Below, piece by piece: positions 18,231 to 25,099 of a stretch of DNA of 33,506 nucleotides; position 1 is the stretch's first letter; every line of letters starts with the position of its first letter. The translations under genes and the position numbers were made by a program. Source of the stretch: Salinisphaera hydrothermalis C41B8 (GTDB taxonomy: Bacteria; Pseudomonadota; Gammaproteobacteria; Nevskiales; Salinisphaeraceae); assembly GCF_000732535.1 (NCBI RefSeq), contig NZ_APNK01000039.1, positions 1 to 33,506 on the forward strand, read 5' to 3'. The notes under the pieces are model-generated. The model was given only the letters and a program-made list of their open reading frames with translations. It ran no database searches and had not been told where the DNA came from.

Positions 18231-19646
18231 TTAACGCAACGGCACGGCCGCGGCGTGATCGCGCTGATCCGCTGGGAAGAACTCGCCCGCCTTCAGATCG
18301 GATTCGATCTGCTCCAGCGATCGGCCGTTGGTTTCCGGCACATAGCGGATGATGAACACCACGCCCAGCGCGCTGATGACCGCATACAGCCAGAAGGCGC
18401 CGGAAGTACCGAGCGCATTGATCAGGGTGAGCGTGGTCAGCGTGACCAGCAGATCGAAAGTCCAGTGCGAGAACGCACCAACGCTCGCGCCCTTGCCGCG
18501 TACGAACAACGGGTAGACCTCGGCATTGATCAGCCACAACGCCACACCGAAGCTGCAGTTCAAGGCCATGTAGACGGCCATGCATGCAATCAGCAGATAC
18601 TGAGCGGCCGAGGCCTGCGGCATGCCGCCCATGAACAGGATCGCCATCACCGCCATGGCCACGGCCGAACCCGGCACCATCCACAACAAGAAGCGGCGCC
18701 GACCGATGCGATCGACCATCAGGATGCCGAAGATGGTGCTGATATTGACCAGCACGATGGCGCCGATCGACGCCAGGATCGAGGCGTTGTCGCCGAACCC
18801 AGCCTCGGTCAGGATGGTCGGCGCGTAATACAGCAGCGCATTGTTACCGGTGATCTGTGAAAACATGGCGATCCCGGCCCCGGCCACCAGCGCCGGGCGA
18901 ATCCAGGGCGAAAACAGATCCGCCCAGCTGCCTTCCGGCCGGGCCGAAATATCCTTGATTTCGTCCACTTCTCGCTGTGCCGCCGCCCGATCCAGGCGCA
19001 CGCGGGTGAGCACCCCCAGGGCGTCGTCCTCGCGATCGCGGTTGACCAGCCAGCGCGGCGACTCGGGCAACAGCAGCATGCCGACCATCAAAATCACGGC
19101 CGGAATCATCCCCAGGCCGAACATCCAGCGCCAGGCGTCACCCAGCGCGTAGCCGGTGAGATAAGCCACCAGAATGCCGAACACGACCATGAACTGGAAC
19201 ATCACCACCAGCTTGCCGCGGGAAGCGGGCGGCGCGACTTCGCCGATATAGACCGGGATGATCTGGGTCGCGCTGCCCGCGGACAGGCCCAGGATGAAGC
19301 GCGAGGCGATCAGGAAGATCACCGTCGGTGCCATCGCCGACATCAACGAACCGATGGTGAAGATCAACCCCACCAGCATGATCGAGCGTCGGCGCCCGAT
19401 CTTGTCGGAGATCGCGCCGGTGCTGAACACGCCGAACAGCGCCCCGAAGATGATCGCGCCGGTGACGATCTGTTTGAGGTTGTCGGTCAGCGAAAAGTCG
19501 TGTGCGAGGCCAAGCAGGGCCACGCCGATGATGCCGGTGTCGTAGCCGAACAACAGCCCGCCCAGGGCCGCGACGACCGACACCATGCCGATCAGCGGCC
19601 GTCCCTTGAGCAGCCCGGTGGGTGCTGTGCTGACGGATTCGCTCAT
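18231..19646 (-). CDS. Sugar porter family MFS transporter
   Basis: A 471-residue, twelve-helix major-facilitator protein of the sugar porter family, probably a proton-coupled uptake system for a sugar or polyol. Family motifs are FGYDTGIIGVALL (helix 1), SDKIGRRRS (loop 2-3), PVYIGEVAPPASRG, PESPRWLVNR, DRIGRRRF (loop 8-9) and the C-terminal PETNGRSLEQIE. Two sugar-site motifs differ from XylE/GLUT: QQxxGxN is SQITGNN, and the helix-10 GPVxW motif reads FGVALW. The substrate may therefore not be a standard hexose. SD gaggg precedes ATG 19646; the leader holds an attenuator-like hairpin and a palindrome. Confidence 0.9.
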   Translation of the reverse strand: MSESVSTAPTGLLKGRPLIGMVSVVAALGGLLFGYDTGIIGVALLGLAHDFSLTDNLKQIVTGAIIFGALFGVFSTGAISDKIGRRRSIMLVGLIFTIGSLMSAMAPTVIFLIASRFILGLSAGSATQIIPVYIGEVAPPASRGKLVVMFQFMVVFGILVAYLTGYALGDAWRWMFGLGMIPAVILMVGMLLLPESPRWLVNRDREDDALGVLTRVRLDRAAAQREVDEIKDISARPEGSWADLFSPWIRPALVAGAGIAMFSQITGNNALLYYAPTILTEAGFGDNASILASIGAIVLVNISTIFGILMVDRIGRRRFLLWMVPGSAVAMAVMAILFMGGMPQASAAQYLLIACMAVYMALNCSFGVALWLINAEVYPLFVRGKGASVGAFSHWTFDLLVTLTTLTLINALGTSGAFWLYAVISALGVVFIIRYVPETNGRSLEQIESDLKAGEFFPADQRDHAAAVPLR

Positions 19647-19661
19647 GGTTTCACCCTCAAG

Positions 19662-19698
19662 AAAAAAGACGCGCCGGGGCGGATTAATGCCGGGCGCG
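19662..19698 (-). promoter_or_regulatory. Attenuator-like hairpin in the sugar porter leader
   Basis: On the minus strand, arms cgcgcccgg (19698-19690) and ccggcgcg (19677-19670) pair with one bulged C around a 12-base loop, followed two bases later by six T residues (19667-19662). The Shine-Dalgarno of the sugar porter begins four bases further on. It could end transcripts from the upstream UDG gene. Because it sits within the porter leader it could also act as an attenuator. Confidence 0.5.
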
Positions 19699-19706
19699 CT
19701 GTTTGC

Positions 19707-19723
19707 TGAATCGATTCATTATC
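19707..19723 (-). promoter_or_regulatory. Candidate operator overlapping a -10 box upstream of the sugar porter gene
   Basis: A perfect 12-bp palindrome TGAATCGATTCA (19707-19718) abuts a minus-strand -10-like GATAAT (19718-19723), 60-75 bases before the porter ATG. A central CG flanked by A/T half-sites with TG/CA ends resembles LacI/GalR-type operators. No regulator of that family is in the window, and the -35 region is poor. Confidence 0.4.
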
Positions 19724-19774
19724 GCGTTCACTGCGTGATACAGCACTACATCTTTGGGATGAGACGCACGACTT

Positions 19775-21232
19775 TTAGGTGGCGGTAATCGCACTCAGAT
19801 CGGCCACGAACCGGCGATACTCCGCATCGCGCCGCTCGCGCGATCGGAGGATGAACGACGGATGCACGGTGGGAATCAGGCATCGTTCGTGCCAAGCGAT
19901 GCGCTGGCCGCGTTGCCGCGTCACCGAGATACGGCGGTCGAGCAGTGCCATGGCCGCGCTCGCGCCCAGGGCAACCACGACGTCGGGCGCCACGCGCTCG
20001 ATCTCGGCCTCGAGCCAGGGGCGGCAGGCGTGGATCTCATGGTAGTCGGGCTTGGCGTGCAGCCGGGTCTTGCCTTTGGGCGTGAACTTGAAATGCTTGA
20101 CGGCATTGGTGACATACAACGATCGACGATCCAGCCCCGCCTCGCTCAGCGCTGCATCGAGCAGTTGCCCCGCCGGGCCGACGAACGGCCGCCCGGCGAG
20201 GTCCTCGGCATCGCCGGGCTGTTCGCCCACCAGCATGATGCGCGCGTCGGCCGGTCCCTCGCCGAACACGGTCTGGGTCGCCGGCCCGCACAAAGCACAG
20301 CGCTGGCAACCGGCCGCGCGCAGCGCCAGCTGTTGCAGCGAGCCGCTTTCGGCATCGTCGGCGCGACGCGCCAGCATGGCCGCGGGCGCCTCCGGCGTGG
20401 CGCCGCAACGCAGCGTGTCCTGTTCGCGCCGGTCGGCCTCCATGGCCGCCACGCGACGATCGGCCCCGGCGATCAAGCCCGGGATGAGCGCGGCTTCCGG
20501 CAGGTTCTTCCAGTACTTTGCCGGCATTTCCGACATCATCGCGCGCGTCTTGATCCGGGCCGGATTGAAGATGCTGCGGTAATAGACTCGCCACGCGTCT
20601 TCCGTGACGTCGCCGTCCGGCGCCGCGCTCTTGTCGGTGCCGGGCGAGAACCAGACATCCCCGCTGCCCTCCCAGTGCGCACAGCGATCGGGCGTCAGGA
20701 TCGACCAACGCATATTGGCGAAGCGACGCTGAAAGAAGCCGGCCGCATAGGCCACGATCTCGTGTTCCGGCTCGAACCAGGCCACGTAACGCGGCTCGTC
20801 GAAACCAGGTTCGAACACCGTGCGAAAACGCACGAACGCCTTCATTTTGTGCACGTCGCGCCGCACCGCCTTGGCGTAGCGGTTCACCCGGGCGACGTCC
20901 GGATCGCCCACCAGCGTCAGTAGATGCCGTTCGCCGTGAGACAACCGCCACAACAGCCGATACAACAACGCCCAGCGATCCGCGCTGCGATAACAGGCCG
21001 CGGCACGCGCCAGCGTCACGAACGACCGCGGCACCCGCGGCCCCGGTGCATCGTCGGCAGCGGGCGGGGCCTTGGCTTTCGGGTCGGCTTGCCACCAGAG
21101 CGACGCCGGCGGCAGGCCGGCCTGCCACTGAGCACGGGCGGCGGCCTGCCAGCCGACGAAATCCGGCACGAAACGCACGGCGACATGACCCGCGGACGTG
21201 GCACTGCCGCCGAACAACGAGACTTGTTCCAT
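19775..21232 (-). CDS. DUF4130 (TIGR03915)-UdgX-type uracil-DNA glycosylase fusion
   Basis: A 485-residue two-domain protein. The N-terminal half (about 15-260) is the DUF4130 DNA-metabolism domain that partners a radical SAM protein; typical pieces are RRDVHKMKAFVRFR and FFQRRFANMRWSILTPDR. The C-terminal half (about 300-485) is a family 4/UdgX-like uracil-DNA glycosylase with Cys residues for a 4Fe-4S cluster (GCQRCALC; HACRPWL), motif 1 GEQPGD (336-341), GRPFVGPAG, and HPS with H457. The UdgX loop that links covalently to the abasic site, KRRIH, appears here as KTRLH with His392 kept. Uracil excision or covalent capture is therefore plausible. It starts two bases after the DUF3307 stop, so it is coupled to that gene; its radical SAM partner is 1.5 kb upstream. 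Confidence 0.92.
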   Translation of the reverse strand: MEQVSLFGGSATSAGHVAVRFVPDFVGWQAAARAQWQAGLPPASLWWQADPKAKAPPAADDAPGPRVPRSFVTLARAAACYRSADRWALLYRLLWRLSHGERHLLTLVGDPDVARVNRYAKAVRRDVHKMKAFVRFRTVFEPGFDEPRYVAWFEPEHEIVAYAAGFFQRRFANMRWSILTPDRCAHWEGSGDVWFSPGTDKSAAPDGDVTEDAWRVYYRSIFNPARIKTRAMMSEMPAKYWKNLPEAALIPGLIAGADRRVAAMEADRREQDTLRCGATPEAPAAMLARRADDAESGSLQQLALRAAGCQRCALCGPATQTVFGEGPADARIMLVGEQPGDAEDLAGRPFVGPAGQLLDAALSEAGLDRRSLYVTNAVKHFKFTPKGKTRLHAKPDYHEIHACRPWLEAEIERVAPDVVVALGASAAMALLDRRISVTRQRGQRIAWHERCLIPTVHPSFILRSRERRDAEYRRFVADLSAITAT

Positions 21233-21234
21233 CC

Positions 21235-22014
21235 TCAGCGTCCCGTGGTCTGCAGGCCGATGAATGCGGCGTGCGTCAGCAGCGCGACGATGATCGCCCA
21301 GCCGAAACTCGCCAGCGTACCGATAATTACGATCTCGCTGATTCGCGGCTCGCGCGCGTATTGGAACCGCAGGATGGATTTCGCGGCGATGACAAAGCCG
21401 ATGGCATTGAACTGACCGAGCAACACGAAAAGAAATACCAACGTGCGTTCCAGCCAGCCGATCCAGGCGCCCGCGCCGGGCATCTGAGGGCTATCGTCAT
21501 CGCCGTCCGAGGCGCGGTACGCGCGATGAAACCCGGCCATCAATAGAGCCAGCATCAGATCACCGACACGCGTGGCCAGCCAGAAGCCGCCCCCAAAGAC
21601 GAACCCGATCAGCAGGCCCCGGACATGCTCCGGCGTCAGCAGCGCCGGCCAGAAGCCGTGGGCGAAGGCGCCTGGCCAGAGCAGCGCGGCCAAGCCGATG
21701 AACACCAGATGGGCGATTTGATCGAGGGCGAACAACTGCAACGCCCCGAACGGCATCGCGGCCGCGCGCGCGTCGACACGCGGATGGATCTTGAGCGCAT
21801 CGCACACGGCATGGGAAACCACCACGAGGACGATGGCCGCCGCGGCATCGAGTGAGCGGGCGCCCAGCGCGAGCCCGGAGAATATCGCGACGCAGGCGAT
21901 ATGCAGCGCGAACACCGGCGGCTGGCGCTTGGCGGCGATCATGGCACGTGTCTGTGCCATGAAATCCGCGAGGACATGCGCGAAGACCAGCGCGATCACT
22001 GTTTCCAGCATCAT
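21235..22014 (-). CDS. DUF3307 polytopic membrane protein
   Basis: A 259-residue protein with about six transmembrane helices. The N-terminal part matches DUF3307: LETVIALVFAHVLADFMAQ, HIACVAIFSG, VVVSHAVCDALK and FALDQIAHLVFI, with conserved His/Asp residues inside the membrane (HxxxDF, SHxxxD, DQxxH). This pattern could bind metal or form a polar site. An acidic loop (SDGDDDSPQ, near residue 185) precedes two more helices. Function is unknown; the family is often seen beside SatD-family genes. It has two adjacent ATGs at 22014, lies after a terminator that isolates it from satD, and is followed two bases later by the DUF4130-UDG gene. Confidence 0.85.
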   Translation of the reverse strand: MMLETVIALVFAHVLADFMAQTRAMIAAKRQPPVFALHIACVAIFSGLALGARSLDAAAAIVLVVVSHAVCDALKIHPRVDARAAAMPFGALQLFALDQIAHLVFIGLAALLWPGAFAHGFWPALLTPEHVRGLLIGFVFGGGFWLATRVGDLMLALLMAGFHRAYRASDGDDDSPQMPGAGAWIGWLERTLVFLFVLLGQFNAIGFVIAAKSILRFQYAREPRISEIVIIGTLASFGWAIIVALLTHAAFIGLQTTGR

Positions 22015-22076
22015 GCGCGGCCGCCCTCGGACGACGCCCCGATACCACGCACCACAGCCTTTTCAGGCTGTTTATT

Positions 22077-22100
22077 AAAAAACAGTCGAAATCGACTGTT
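22077..22100 (-). terminator. Intrinsic terminator after the SatD-family gene
   Basis: On the minus strand an 8-bp stem aacagtcg/cgactgtt with loop attt leads directly into a run of T residues (plus-strand A run 22077-22082), 17 bases after the stop. A second small hairpin (cagcct/aggctg, 22055-22070) lies beside it, with a T-rich flank on the plus strand. Together they should separate satD from the DUF3307 gene. Confidence 0.85.
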
Positions 22101-22117
22101 ATTGATGGTGCCTACGG

Positions 22118-22759
22118 TCATGACGACAACGCCGCCTCGAAGGCATGCACGGCTTCAAGCAACGCATGCCCACCCGCGCGTGAAAAATGGGTCTGTACGG
22201 TCTGGGGCTGTACCGACATCGCTTCCGCGACTTCGGCCATCAACGGTGCGTCCGGCTGGGCCAGCCACATGAAAATTTCGGCCTGGCGGCTCGTCCAGTG
22301 ACGCGAGCGCTCGTCGCAGACGGCGAACAGCCCCTGCGTGAGCGCTCGCACCGCCAATGCCTCTGGCTCGCCTTCGATACGCCAGAGCTGGTGGACGCCG
22401 AGCGACTCGAGCCCGCGGCCGGATAACTCGAACGCGGGCCCGGCGGATTCGGCGAGCGTGGCCCCCGCTTGCACATGGCCCAGACCGATACCGATACGGG
22501 TTTCGGCGTCGTCGCAGGCCCAGCGCACCGCCGCGCGGGCAAACAGGCAAGCGCGCAGCGCATGAGCCGGCCGCTCGATGAGCATTTGCCAGCCGTCGCC
22601 GCGAAATCGTTCGTAGCGCACCCCATCCTCGTCGGGCCATTCGCCGATCGCAGACGCGGCTTCGCCGAGCGCGGTCATCACCGCATCGAGCGCGCCGGTC
22701 GACAGCGCTGAAGATTTGACGATGTCGCCGGTCAGAACACAAACGGTCGATGGGTTCAT
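22118..22759 (-). CDS. SatD-family protein with cyclase-like residues and C-terminal HTH
   Basis: A 213-residue protein of the SatD family (named from a Streptococcus acid-tolerance locus; biochemical role unknown). The first two thirds resemble class III nucleotide cyclases. TGDIVKSS holds Asp12 and FRGDGWQML holds Asp55, 43 residues apart, close to the 44 between the two metal-binding Asp of adenylate cyclase. RIGIGLGHVQAG (88-99) and GPAFELSGRGLESL (107-120) then mimic the cyclase beta strand and the helix that follows. Residues 172-200 form a helix-turn-helix (LMAEVAEAMSVQPQTVQTHF). Cyclase activity is my inference. It follows the radical SAM gene by 35 bases on the same strand and ends at a strong terminator. 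Confidence 0.82.
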   Translation of the reverse strand: MNPSTVCVLTGDIVKSSALSTGALDAVMTALGEAASAIGEWPDEDGVRYERFRGDGWQMLIERPAHALRACLFARAAVRWACDDAETRIGIGLGHVQAGATLAESAGPAFELSGRGLESLGVHQLWRIEGEPEALAVRALTQGLFAVCDERSRHWTSRQAEIFMWLAQPDAPLMAEVAEAMSVQPQTVQTHFSRAGGHALLEAVHAFEAALSS

Positions 22760-22794
22760 GGACGATCTCTCTTCGAATCGGCGGCGGCCGGAGC

Positions 22795-24072
22795 CTAGAA
22801 ATCAAAACTCTGCTGCGCCGCCGCGGGCGGTGCAAACCGCGAACGCAGCCGCGCGCTGCTGACATCGCCGAGCCCCGGGTGGTGATTGGCACAGATCACG
22901 AACGGCATGGCTTTCTTCACGCTCGCCTTGAGCGCCACCAGATCCTCCAGCCGTACTTTCTGCCAGCGTCGCATGGCCAGAATACGATTGACCGATTTCA
23001 CCCCAAGACCCGGCACGCGCAGCAAGCGCTCGCGGTCATCCCGATTCAGATTGACCGGGAAATACGCTCGGTTGCGCAACGCCCAGGCAAGCTTGGGATC
23101 GACCTCCAGATCCAGCATGCCGGCAGCCGACGCATCGTCGGCGCCGGCCGTGATTTCATCGTGGCGATACCCATAAAAACGAATCAGCCAATCCGATTGA
23201 TACAAGCGATGCTCGCGAATCAGCGATGTGCGCCGGGCCGGCAGCTTCGCCGACGCATCCGGGATCGGCGAAAACGCCGAAAAATAAACACGCTTGAGCC
23301 GATAGGACGAATACAGATCCGCCGTAGTCGAGAGGATGTCGGCATCGGTGGACGGCTCGGCACCAATGATCATCTGGGTAGACTGCCCCGCCGGCGCGAA
23401 CCGCTCGACCGGTGCGGCCTTGGGGCGCGCATTGGTAATGCGCCGGGCGGCCCGGCGCGCCTCGGCCTGTTCCTCCTGTCGCGACCGAATGCGCGCCATC
23501 GATAGCTTGATGGTGCGATGATCTTTTTCCGGGGCCAAATCGTGCAGCGCGGTCTGCGTCGGCAGTTCGACGTTGATCGACAGACGGTCGGCGTACTTGC
23601 CGGCATCGGCCAGCAGTTCGCCGTCGGCGTCCGGAATCGTCTTGAGATGGATATAGCCGCGAAAATCGTGATCGACGCGCAGACTGCGCGCGACTTCCAC
23701 GAGCTGCGCCATGGTGTAGTCGGCCGACTGGATCACGCCCGAGGACAGAAACAGCCCTTCGATGTAGTTGCGCTTGTAGAAATCCAGCGTGAGATCCACC
23801 ACTTCCTTCGTCGTGAACCGTGCGCGCCGCACGTTCGACGAGTTGCGGTTGATGCAGTAGCTGCACTCGTAGATACAGAAGTTCGTGAGCAGGATCTTGA
23901 GCAGCGAGATACAACGCCCGTCCGGCGCATAGGCATGGCAGATGCCCGAGCCCTCGGCCGAGCCGACCCCGCGCCCGCCCAACGACGAACGCGACGTCGT
24001 GCCGCTGGACGCACAAGACGCATCGTATTTGGCGGCGTCCGCGAGGATGGCCAGCTTGTCGATCGTTTCCAT
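22795..24072 (-). CDS. Radical SAM protein linked to UDG (TIGR03916), putative DNA repair
   Basis: A 425-residue radical SAM enzyme. The 4Fe-4S motif CxxxCxxC is CIYECSYC (Cys66, Cys70, Cys73). The start METIDKLAILADAAKYDASC and the segments GLFLSSGVIQSADYTM, GYIHLKTIPDAD and YYSAFSPI-like YFSAFSPIPD are characteristic of the family that accompanies the DUF4130/UDG protein. The C-terminus carries a helix-hairpin-helix (LLRVPGLGVKSVNRILAMRR), suited to DNA binding. Family knowledge: the two proteins occur together in many bacteria and are thought to repair or modify DNA, but the reaction is unknown. Here the partner is the fusion at 19775-21232, separated by satD and DUF3307. It is divergent from the MscS gene. 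Confidence 0.93.
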   Translation of the reverse strand: METIDKLAILADAAKYDASCASSGTTSRSSLGGRGVGSAEGSGICHAYAPDGRCISLLKILLTNFCIYECSYCINRNSSNVRRARFTTKEVVDLTLDFYKRNYIEGLFLSSGVIQSADYTMAQLVEVARSLRVDHDFRGYIHLKTIPDADGELLADAGKYADRLSINVELPTQTALHDLAPEKDHRTIKLSMARIRSRQEEQAEARRAARRITNARPKAAPVERFAPAGQSTQMIIGAEPSTDADILSTTADLYSSYRLKRVYFSAFSPIPDASAKLPARRTSLIREHRLYQSDWLIRFYGYRHDEITAGADDASAAGMLDLEVDPKLAWALRNRAYFPVNLNRDDRERLLRVPGLGVKSVNRILAMRRWQKVRLEDLVALKASVKKAMPFVICANHHPGLGDVSSARLRSRFAPPAAAQQSFDF

Positions 24073-24136
24073 ACTGTCTATTTATACAGGAGCGAGCGAT
24101 TCGGATGCAGCCGATCGTCGGCTCCGGCTTGCGGCG

Positions 24137-25099
24137 ATGCCGTCGCCCTGCGAACAATGGTTTAAAGCCACCGAGACCGCCGTGACCCAGGCCACACCCG
24201 ACACCGCGCTACCGGCCGCCAAGGCGGCCTTCTCGCTCGACCACGTCGTGGCGGTCGCGCTGAATACGCTGATGCAGGCCTGGACGGGCTTTGTCGCGCG
24301 CCTGCCGATGCTTGGCATCGCGCTGGTGATCCTCCTGATCACGTGGCTGCTGGCCTGGGCGAGTCTCAAGCTCGCCCACCGCATTGCCGGGAAGCGCGCC
24401 CGGCCGTCACTGCTGCGGCTGATCGAACGCCTGATCAAGATCGCGATCTGGGCGGCGGGCCTGTTGCTGGCCGCGATCGTGGTCTTTCCCGACTTGTCGC
24501 CCGCCAAGGCGTTGGGCGGGCTCGGTCTGCTGTCGGTGGCCGTGGGCTTCGCCTTCCGCGACACCTTCGAGAATTTCTTCGCCGGCATGCTGATGCTCTG
24601 GAAATACCCGTTCGAATCGGGCGACTTCATCGAATGCGGCGACCTGCTCGGCCGGGTGGAGCGGGTGCATATCCGCATGACCACGCTACGCCAGACCACC
24701 GGCGAACTGCTGCTGGTGCCCAACAGCCGGCTGTTCAAGAACCCGGTGCTGGTGCTCACCGATCAGCCGGAACGCCGGATATCGATCATCACCGGCGTGG
24801 CCTATTCGGTGGATCTAGCCGCTGCCCTCGAGGTGATCGAGAAGGCCATGGACGGCTGCGAGGACGTGATGCGCGAACGCCCGGTTCAGGTGTTCGCCCA
24901 CGGCTTCGGCGACAGCGGGATGGAAATCGAAGTCGCCTGGTGGTGCGGCTCGACCCCGCTCGAGGTCCGCCGTTCGCGCAGCGAGGTAGTGGTGGCGATC
25001 AAGGCCGCGCTGGATGCCGCGGGCATGGAAATTCCCTTCCCCTACCGTACCCTGACCTTCGCCGAACCGCTGACCATCGCCCGCGACGCCGATTCCTGA
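24137..25099 (+). CDS. MscS-type small-conductance mechanosensitive channel
   Basis: A 320-residue MscS homologue with three transmembrane helices. The last is the pore helix, carrying LGGLGLLSVAVGFAFRDTFE, followed by the conserved FFAGMLMLWKYPFESGDFI of the beta domain and LLLVPNSRLFKNPV. The cytoplasmic alpha/beta vestibule covers about residues 190-310. Such channels open under membrane tension and release solutes during hypo-osmotic shock, fitting a saline habitat. The start is uncertain: ATG 24137 avoids the divergent radical SAM gene (start 24072), while GTG 24182 would remove 15 residues; neither has a clear SD. The stop lies five bases before arfB, so the two are probably co-transcribed. 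Confidence 0.9.
   Translation: MPSPCEQWFKATETAVTQATPDTALPAAKAAFSLDHVVAVALNTLMQAWTGFVARLPMLGIALVILLITWLLAWASLKLAHRIAGKRARPSLLRLIERLIKIAIWAAGLLLAAIVVFPDLSPAKALGGLGLLSVAVGFAFRDTFENFFAGMLMLWKYPFESGDFIECGDLLGRVERVHIRMTTLRQTTGELLLVPNSRLFKNPVLVLTDQPERRISIITGVAYSVDLAAALEVIEKAMDGCEDVMRERPVQVFAHGFGDSGMEIEVAWWCGSTPLEVRRSRSEVVVAIKAALDAAGMEIPFPYRTLTFAEPLTIARDADS

Follow-up and report, generated by a model that had tools for sequence, protein, structure and literature searches.

A SatD-DUF3307 cassette with a predicted operator array lies inside a radical SAM-UdgX repair pair in Salinisphaera

Introduction

Regulators of the PucR/CdaR type join a degenerate GGDEF-like domain to a C-terminal helix-turn-helix, NrdR boxes are palindromes in tandem to which a repressor that senses nucleotides binds, and Pycsar systems consist of a cyclase and a membrane effector. 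The sat genes of Streptococcus take their name from "secretion and acid tolerance". Here we compare with these systems a locus of Salinisphaera hydrothermalis C41B8, in which a SatD-family gene and a DUF3307 gene are placed between the genes of a radical S-adenosylmethionine (rSAM) protein and a uracil-DNA glycosylase (UDG). The DNA analysed is a stretch of 33,506 nt (contig NZ_APNK01000039.1, positions 1 to 33,506), hereafter called the window, to which all coordinates of this locus refer.

SatD carries just an acid-tolerance label in the available parts of two papers (PMC11323703, PMC10326533), and nothing is said there of a cyclase fold, a helix-turn-helix or an operator. The satD gene is described in one of them as essential in the tested S. 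pyogenes strains yet accessory, being present in 178 of 249 genomes (PMC11323703). DUF3307 appears, in the available part of a further paper, as the best-hit label of one phage gene in a gene table (PMC8504454). In the non-subscription literature searched we saw neither an operator of SatD nor a regulatory role of this protein described.

A previous reading of the window, made from the sequence alone, took the four genes as two interleaved pairs in two transcription units divided by a terminator, and suggested four proteins working together, with the SatD-DUF3307 pair as a signalling or membrane module. Our analysis makes it quite likely that the locus consists of two independent modules, one nested in the other, and that SatD is a local transcription factor of DUF3307, probably one that senses a nucleotide.

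Results

The four open reading frames of the locus lie on the minus strand: rSAM comes first, then SatD and, after the hairpin, DUF3307 and DUF4130-UdgX. Together with the family matches they bear out the order given by the sequence-only reading, including the two bases (21233-21234) that separate the DUF3307 and UDG genes. Both of its pairs are also genuine, rSAM with DUF4130-UdgX and SatD with DUF3307.

Scanning the whole collection with the SatD alignment yielded 60 SatD loci (the first set), assigned by their titles to Proteobacteria, Ignavibacteria, Bacteroidetes, Chloroflexi, Verrucomicrobia, Acidobacteria, Desulfobacterales, KSB1 and others. DUF3307 lies directly downstream of SatD on the same strand in 57 of them, and directly 3' of it in 53 of the 56 loci outside Salinisphaera. 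The three exceptions are a locus that runs off a contig end (L091), a partial SatD located 0.3 kb from a contig end (L115), and a Desulfohalobiaceae locus (L100) where by eye only a C-terminal piece of DUF3307 follows SatD (2234-2422 of that locus), perhaps a pair that has decayed or been interrupted. The pairing was also seen in a 299-genome sample of the phylum, in which SatD was detected in 13 genomes, DUF3307 in 24 and rSAM in 53: the Pfam profile placed DUF3307 beside SatD in 11 of the 13 SatD genomes, and a profile built from the pair's own DUF3307 did so in all 13, the match in L138 being short. In a second set of 39 loci, which includes 12 of the 13 phylum-sample loci, DUF3307 follows SatD in 38 (L244 is the exception). 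The 60-locus set and the genome samples may share species. A class-wide search with a single SatD sequence (4/229) was too insensitive and was replaced by a profile search; in a class sample around one genome (G400), SatD was found in only 2 of 289 genomes, both already in the other samples.

Between satD and DUF3307, in a gap of 103 bp, lies a predicted operator array of two 18-bp palindromes (22054..22099, minus strand), recognised by pattern search and by comparison of loci. The first, ACAGTC-N6-GACTGT at 22099-22082, is the core of the hairpin that had been called a terminator (22100-22081, with perfect 9-bp arms), and the second, ACAGCC-N6-GGCTGT at 22071-22054, is 28 bp apart from it. 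The inverted repeat followed by T is thus present as described, but because comparison across loci shows a tandem array, it is better read as a copy of that array, that is, as a candidate operator. Terminator-like sites were not commoner than expected in the region from 19000 to 24800 on both strands (4 found versus a shuffle mean of 4.2). Each of the seven Salinisphaera cassettes has a pair of copies at a distance of 28 bp, some of them departing from the pattern at two positions.

Since our first pattern was built from the loci on which it was counted (45 of 57 sequences; shuffles gave a mean of 7 and at most 16), the motif-free, tandem-pair and second-set tests are the fairer ones. A motif-free scan for palindromes with 6-bp arms and a 6-bp spacer gave 9.07 per kb in the SatD-DUF3307 gap and 1.86 per kb upstream of SatD, versus 0.31-0.66 per kb in both coding regions and downstream, and the distances between palindromes in the gap peaked at 29 (32 pairs), 28 (7 pairs) and 58 (9 pairs). 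For the tandem-pair test, an array was defined as palindrome pairs at 28 or 29 bp with similar half-sites, and 55 loci were counted after dropping L091, L099, L100, L111 and L115, in which a gene is partial or missing. Arrays were present in 42 of the 55 loci and in 45 of 110 upstream or gap regions, versus none of 110 coding regions and 0-1 in each of 20 shuffles. The distance was 28 in 12 regions and 29 in 34, with no more than 1 at any of the 12 other distances tested; the coding control at other distances gave 2 at 30, 1 at 32 and otherwise 0. The second set had arrays in 29 of 39 loci and in 0 of 39 coding controls. In many loci where satD and DUF3307 are tight, the array is located upstream of SatD. 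Half-sites vary by lineage (ACAGCC, ACAACC, ACAAGY, GCAAGC, ATAGCC, GTAACY, TTAGCC and others) at a constant period. We also observed some loci with five to seven copies (L066, L067, L084 and L106), in places with groups of differing half-sites (ACAGGC then ACAGCC; ACAACC then ATAAGC; ATCGCC and ATAGCC), as if the specificity were in transition.

When the C41B8 genome (4.28 Mb) was searched with the tandem pattern at period 28, allowing 3 mismatches, it matched once, at this locus and with 0 mismatches, and the reversed-pattern control gave 0 matches. Because of this single match the array appears to be a dedicated operator rather than one member of a regulon, as far as the period-28 pattern, the one run genome-wide, tells; within that scope a regulon in this genome was rejected as a candidate. 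The pattern is unspecific at 2-3 mismatches, since such matches occur away from the cassette in G304, G306, G307, G309 and G310 (G and L numbers are our labels for genomes and loci), the pattern failed to pick up the cassettes of G300, G301 and G303, and its reversed version matched in 7 of 14 genomes. Our computation supports SatD, the predicted operator and DUF3307 as one cassette, present in many phyla and probably a self-contained regulatory unit.

The half-sites covary with the protein. We calculated the mutual information of each SatD column with each half-site position as a z-score against 60 shuffles, and the five strongest pairs (column 187 with position 4, 185 with 1, 190 with 5, 192 with 4 and 186 with 2; z 13.1 to 6.8) all lie inside the predicted recognition helix, at residues 185-192. 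Four rules were drawn from these top five pairs: G1 goes with R185 (rule 1), C2 with Q186 (rule 2), G4 rather than A4 with T or S187 (rule 3), and C5 rather than G5 with K190 (rule 4). Fisher tests, which ignore kinship, gave p values for rules 1-4 of 5e-6, 3e-5, 5e-8 and 1e-5 in the first set (45 loci) and of 5e-4, 1.5e-5, 7e-4 and 1e-3 in the second (29 loci). As a control for descent, we counted independent pairs on well-supported branches of a tree of the SatD N-terminal domain alone; concordant pairs numbered 1.9, 3.0, 3.8 and 2.8 for the four rules, opposite pairs 0.0 for all of them, and pairs showing no difference 2.1, 0.1, 1.2 and 3.2.

The rules took their final yes/no form after the helices of L127-L138 had been viewed. 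The 27 loci L233-L259, all from a single order, were added after the rules were set, and the second-set p values pool them with other loci; rule 2 is invariant among these 27. Some arrays allow more than one half-site register; they include those of L130, L233, L235, L250 and perhaps L246, which supply the second-set exceptions to rule 1. L058 was read by hand in the ACAGCC register, and the covariation and base-composition tables omit two arrays judged chance-like (the gap of L090 and the upstream region of L106), each locus keeping another array.

The SatD-family regulator of the window (22118..22759, minus strand) was characterised by structure model, alignment, Foldseek and the covariation above. 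Its label appears to be right, though it is not obvious: the protein has no significant Pfam match and no PF16264 match even at E 10, and it is the aligned family members, 18 of 61 rows at E <=0.01 (best 2.3e-10), that match PF16264. Single members of the family match MarR, Sigma70_r4 and HTH families (1-4 of 61 each). The structure model (mean predicted local distance difference test, pLDDT, 91.6) shows a predicted class III nucleotidyl-cyclase fold over about residues 5-130 and a C-terminal helix-turn-helix with its recognition helix at 185-194. The top Foldseek match was the cyclase domain of Rv1900c (E 7.6e-5, probability 1.00, template-modelling score 0.45 by query and 0.57 by target), and others were Ma1120, the uridylate cyclase 8jsz (E 2.1e-4) and, with poor superposition, 3onq (E 8.2e-4), which we take to be of the PucR/CdaR type.

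The metal-site aspartates D12 and D55 are invariant (61 of 61 rows). A weak profile alignment (E 0.087 to 0.16) pairs them with the DI and GD motifs of Ma1120, and a likewise weak hhalign alignment also puts them on the cyclase motifs. Positions 111 and 115, presumably those of the transition-state Asn and Arg by motif, are variable among the 61 rows (R17/E13/V7 and others in column 111, R19/K10/Q8 and others in column 115), and position 51, opposite the base-reading Lys, is Ile in 32, Arg in 24 and Leu in 5. Because the metal aspartates are kept but the catalytic Asn and Arg positions vary, SatD is predicted to be, most likely, a nucleotide- and metal-binding sensor rather than an enzyme.

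The DUF3307 membrane protein (21235..22014, minus strand) was recognised by PF11750 (E 6.8e-12, 45.9 bits, cut-off 23), its structure model and its invariant residues, and the Pfam scan found in it only DUF3307 and no nucleotide-binding domain. The model (pLDDT 93.9) has eight long helices, which we take to cross the membrane, and gave no significant fold match against the PDB (best E 0.28). A relation to the YdjM-type membrane hydrolases (PF04307) was tried and rejected (hhalign 21 columns, probability 1.6%, E 0.032). Among 59 aligned rows, H13, H38, H68, D72 and Q99 are invariant, as are the C-terminal motifs IGxLER, AKSxxR, E and G..S, and D17, D98 and H102 are conserved in 58. As judged from the helix ends in the model and the loop charges, the conserved polar residues probably lie on one side of the membrane, the cytoplasmic one, and our guess is that the protein might be a membrane enzyme with a metal site facing the cytoplasm. 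Ten of the 24 DUF3307 genomes of the phylum sample (L153-L162) have only a short frame of 127-187 aa and no SatD match genome-wide; these are perhaps a second DUF3307 type that does not have the C-terminal motifs.

The outer pair could be assigned at family level. The rSAM protein (22795..24072, minus strand), the upstream half of the interrupted repair pair by profile score, motif and neighbourhood, scores 541 bits against TIGR03916 (cut-off 343.5), also matches Radical_SAM PF04055, and has its CxxxCxxC motif as CIYECSYC at residue 66. The DUF4130-UdgX fusion (19775..21232, minus strand) matches TIGR03915 with 197 bits and TIGR03914 with 287 bits, both above cut-off, and aligns with M. smegmatis UdgX (6ajo) at E 7.4e-54, the histidine of its KTRLH standing opposite that of KRRIH in 6ajo. 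It carries GEQPG at 336, KTRLH at 388 and HPSFILR at 457, which agree with the UdgX motifs (GEQPG, R-loop His and HPS) as defined in the available part of PMC10359453. By these sequence features the UDG part belongs to the UdgX type, a uracil-DNA glycosylase of the self-cross-linking kind.

In an order-wide set of 85 genomes, 23 had rSAM matches (one weak) and 8 had SatD matches (one weak). We inspected wide stretches from 18 rSAM genomes and the own genome, 19 of the 23, and the UDG gene was beside rSAM in all 19, 7 with and 12 without the cassette between them. In keeping with the view that these two proteins are usually adjacent partners, the genes adjoin in 12 of the 12 cassette-free genomes examined in the order, one of which (G309) has a truncated fusion. 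G309 is a Salinisphaera genome in which residues 1-244 of rSAM and 298-479 of UDG share a single open frame (L049 6054-7379), an apparent deletion fusing both partners. The matched parts of rSAM and UDG are 12-22 bp apart in five relatives that do not have the cassette (G302, G308, G171, G304 and G296) and 20-314 bp apart in five further genomes of the order.

Among 14 Salinisphaera genomes searched, 13 have rSAM and 7 of these have the cassette. On an rSAM tree (18 rows, G309 excluded) the distribution of the cassette can be explained by no fewer than two changes, for which a gain in an eight-member clade followed by a loss in G299 is the best reading. The SatD-operator-DUF3307 cassette thus probably entered once between the rSAM and UdgX genes in Salinisphaera, a single gain that the computation supports with modest branch support. 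In G299, the cassette-free member of the clade, 82 bp separate the matched parts of rSAM and UDG (L042 5896-5977), and no operator remnant was seen by eye in this spacer.

SatD and DUF3307 sit between rSAM and UDG in 7 genomes, all Salinisphaera. Both rSAM and UDG are near SatD in 4 of the 60 first-set loci, again all Salinisphaera, and in none of the 56 other loci, with up to 6 kb examined on each side. In the phylum sample, SatD and rSAM co-occur in 4 of 299 genomes (expected 2.3, P 0.18), which is no excess, and DUF3307 and rSAM in 10 (expected 4.3, P 0.004). SatD or DUF3307 is close to rSAM only in the own genome; elsewhere they are separated from it by 0.4 Mb or more, or fall on a different contig, and the nine remaining DUF3307/rSAM genomes all come from two families (f209 and f202). 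The four proteins gave no PADLOC match at E 0.01, and tblastn against phages with SatD and DUF3307 gave nothing at E 0.01. In PHROGs, DUF3307 matches one membrane-protein family (phrog_2470, E 4.1e-11) and SatD none, so that a phage or defence link was set aside. The sequence-only reading had proposed a survey of neighbourhoods for recurrent four-gene linkage in distant genomes, and named adjacency in this lineage alone, with each pair common and unlinked elsewhere, as the result that would tell against the four proteins working together. This is the result we obtained: in the genomes surveyed the linkage was seen only in Salinisphaera, and we therefore do not support that proposal and reject a four-gene system. 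Its description of SatD-DUF3307 as a signalling or membrane module was a fair guess, apart from the terminator placed between the two genes.

Around the cassette, BLAST clusters of the neighbours showed no third constant partner of SatD-DUF3307 across phyla, the neighbours being lineage-specific. In seven Rhodobacterales-like loci (L062, L068, L072, L074, L075, L087 and L096), a frame of one cluster starts 4-52 bp past DUF3307, and the one member scanned is Fe-S_biosyn (PF01521). Another seven loci share an upstream frame at no fixed distance; the one member of it that was scanned is an MgsA-type ATPase. In L127 (genome G385) the SatD match was reported with one internal stop, yet the domain was found in a single open frame.

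Discussion

We propose that rSAM and DUF4130-UdgX would be an old, adjacent repair pair into which the cassette was inserted. The C-terminal helix-turn-helix of SatD would read the half-sites of 18-bp palindromes spaced 28/29 bp, in an array that precedes DUF3307 or, where little space separates the two genes, satD. The N-terminal domain of SatD, with its predicted class III cyclase fold, would most likely bind a nucleotide and a metal and so switch DNA binding, with no cyclic nucleotide made, and the output would be DUF3307, a membrane protein with a conserved cluster of polar His and Asp residues. In Salinisphaera satD lies close behind rSAM, at 35 bases in the window, and is therefore probably co-transcribed with it; SatD would then be made together with rSAM and act on the array before DUF3307-UdgX. 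Because the UdgX gene follows DUF3307, it would come under the SatD operator, and the likely effect of the insertion, as gene order suggests, is that UdgX no longer shares a transcript with its partner and is controlled by SatD.

Several results weigh against this proposal. The key branch for a single gain has an unstarred support of 83/93, and 2-3 changes are required on the bootstrap trees. Sequence-only comparison links SatD to cyclases weakly (PDB profile E 0.087; hhalign E 0.0055, probability 6.7%), so that the relation is carried by the predicted fold. By our criterion 13 of 55 first-set and 10 of 39 second-set loci are without an array, the position tables place DUF3307 without an adjoining SatD in 13 of the 24 DUF3307 genomes, and a hairpin with a T-run could also terminate transcription. 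In the covariation, the sixth pair involves column 17, outside the helix (z 6.7), kinship is left out of the Fisher tests, and the tree-controlled pairs are too few for significance of any single rule.

The hairpin may be considered as an intrinsic terminator or an RNA attenuator, its palindromes acting as RNA, and the perfect 9-bp arms followed by a T-run in the window are what such an element would have. It is hard to reconcile, however, with two or more copies at a fixed 28/29-bp period, with the arrays upstream of SatD in several short-gap loci, or with A/T-rich flanks that extend the palindrome on both sides of one copy. In addition, the 73 mismatched arm pairs show no marked RNA bias (26 G-T versus 17 A-C) and the half-sites covary with the recognition helix of SatD, and we therefore give the RNA explanation little credence. 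We see as little reason to think that another cellular regulator binds the array instead of SatD. Linked genes have a common ancestry, which by itself produces some covariation, and there are covarying columns beyond the helix too, such as column 17; but when every SatD column is considered, the five strongest pairs fall within the recognition helix, and the tandem array is single in the own genome.

A joint action of rSAM, SatD, DUF3307 and UdgX in DNA lesion repair, modification or defence appears very improbable. The four genes do stay together in 7 of the 13 rSAM-bearing Salinisphaera genomes, at SatD identities down to 43%, and DUF3307 shares genomes with rSAM more often than expected; but the linkage was seen in this genus alone, the nine other DUF3307/rSAM genomes are unlinked and fall into two families, SatD shows no such excess and PADLOC was empty. 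It is unlikely, too, that SatD is an active nucleotidyl cyclase with DUF3307 as membrane effector, a Pycsar-like and autoregulating pair. The class III fold, the two invariant metal aspartates, a uridylate cyclase among the fold matches and the near-constant pairing with a membrane protein would all suit such a pair, whereas the free variation at 111 and 115 (positions assigned by motif), the Ile or Arg found mostly at 51, the DNA-reading helix, the empty PADLOC search and a partner with no Pfam nucleotide-binding domain do not. A bolder version, in which SatD would be an active cyclase-fold enzyme sitting on the array and making or consuming a nucleotide signal that switches its own operon and gates DUF3307, with UdgX as a captured output in Salinisphaera, seems doubtful to us; it would amount to a pan-bacterial signalling pair in which one protein is both second-messenger enzyme and transcription factor. 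We thus prefer two nested, independent modules with SatD as the local regulator of DUF3307.

Although SatD and DUF3307 occur in many phyla, the literature examined gives no mechanism for them. A predicted operator with a helix-to-base code turns this unstudied pair into a testable regulator and offers a handle on its signal. In Salinisphaera, the insertion may uncouple the repair partners and place a self-cross-linking glycosylase under a foreign regulator.

The locus can be placed among the known systems as follows. To the SatD family PF16264 it is tied by the matching rows of its alignment, the window protein itself being below detection. With the class III cyclases Rv1900c and Ma1120, SatD shares the predicted fold and the aligned metal aspartates; unlike them it is joined to a helix-turn-helix and does not conserve the catalytic Asn and Arg or the base-reading Lys, at the positions assigned by motif. 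The PucR/CdaR regulators likewise have a nucleotide-cyclase-like fold beside a helix-turn-helix, but SatD differs in its kept metal aspartates, small size, single target gene and periodic operator. Like Pycsar, the cassette pairs a cyclase-fold protein with a membrane protein, and it differs by a DNA-reading domain, by having no conserved catalytic residues and by matching nothing in PADLOC. The array would work like NrdR boxes, as fixed-spacing tandem palindromes with a probable nucleotide sensor, yet its period is 28/29 bp, its protein has another fold, and it is local rather than regulon-wide. The rSAM-UdgX pair, finally, is the one described by TIGR03914, TIGR03915 and TIGR03916, with both members above the family cut-off, but here it is split by the cassette, probably into two transcription units.

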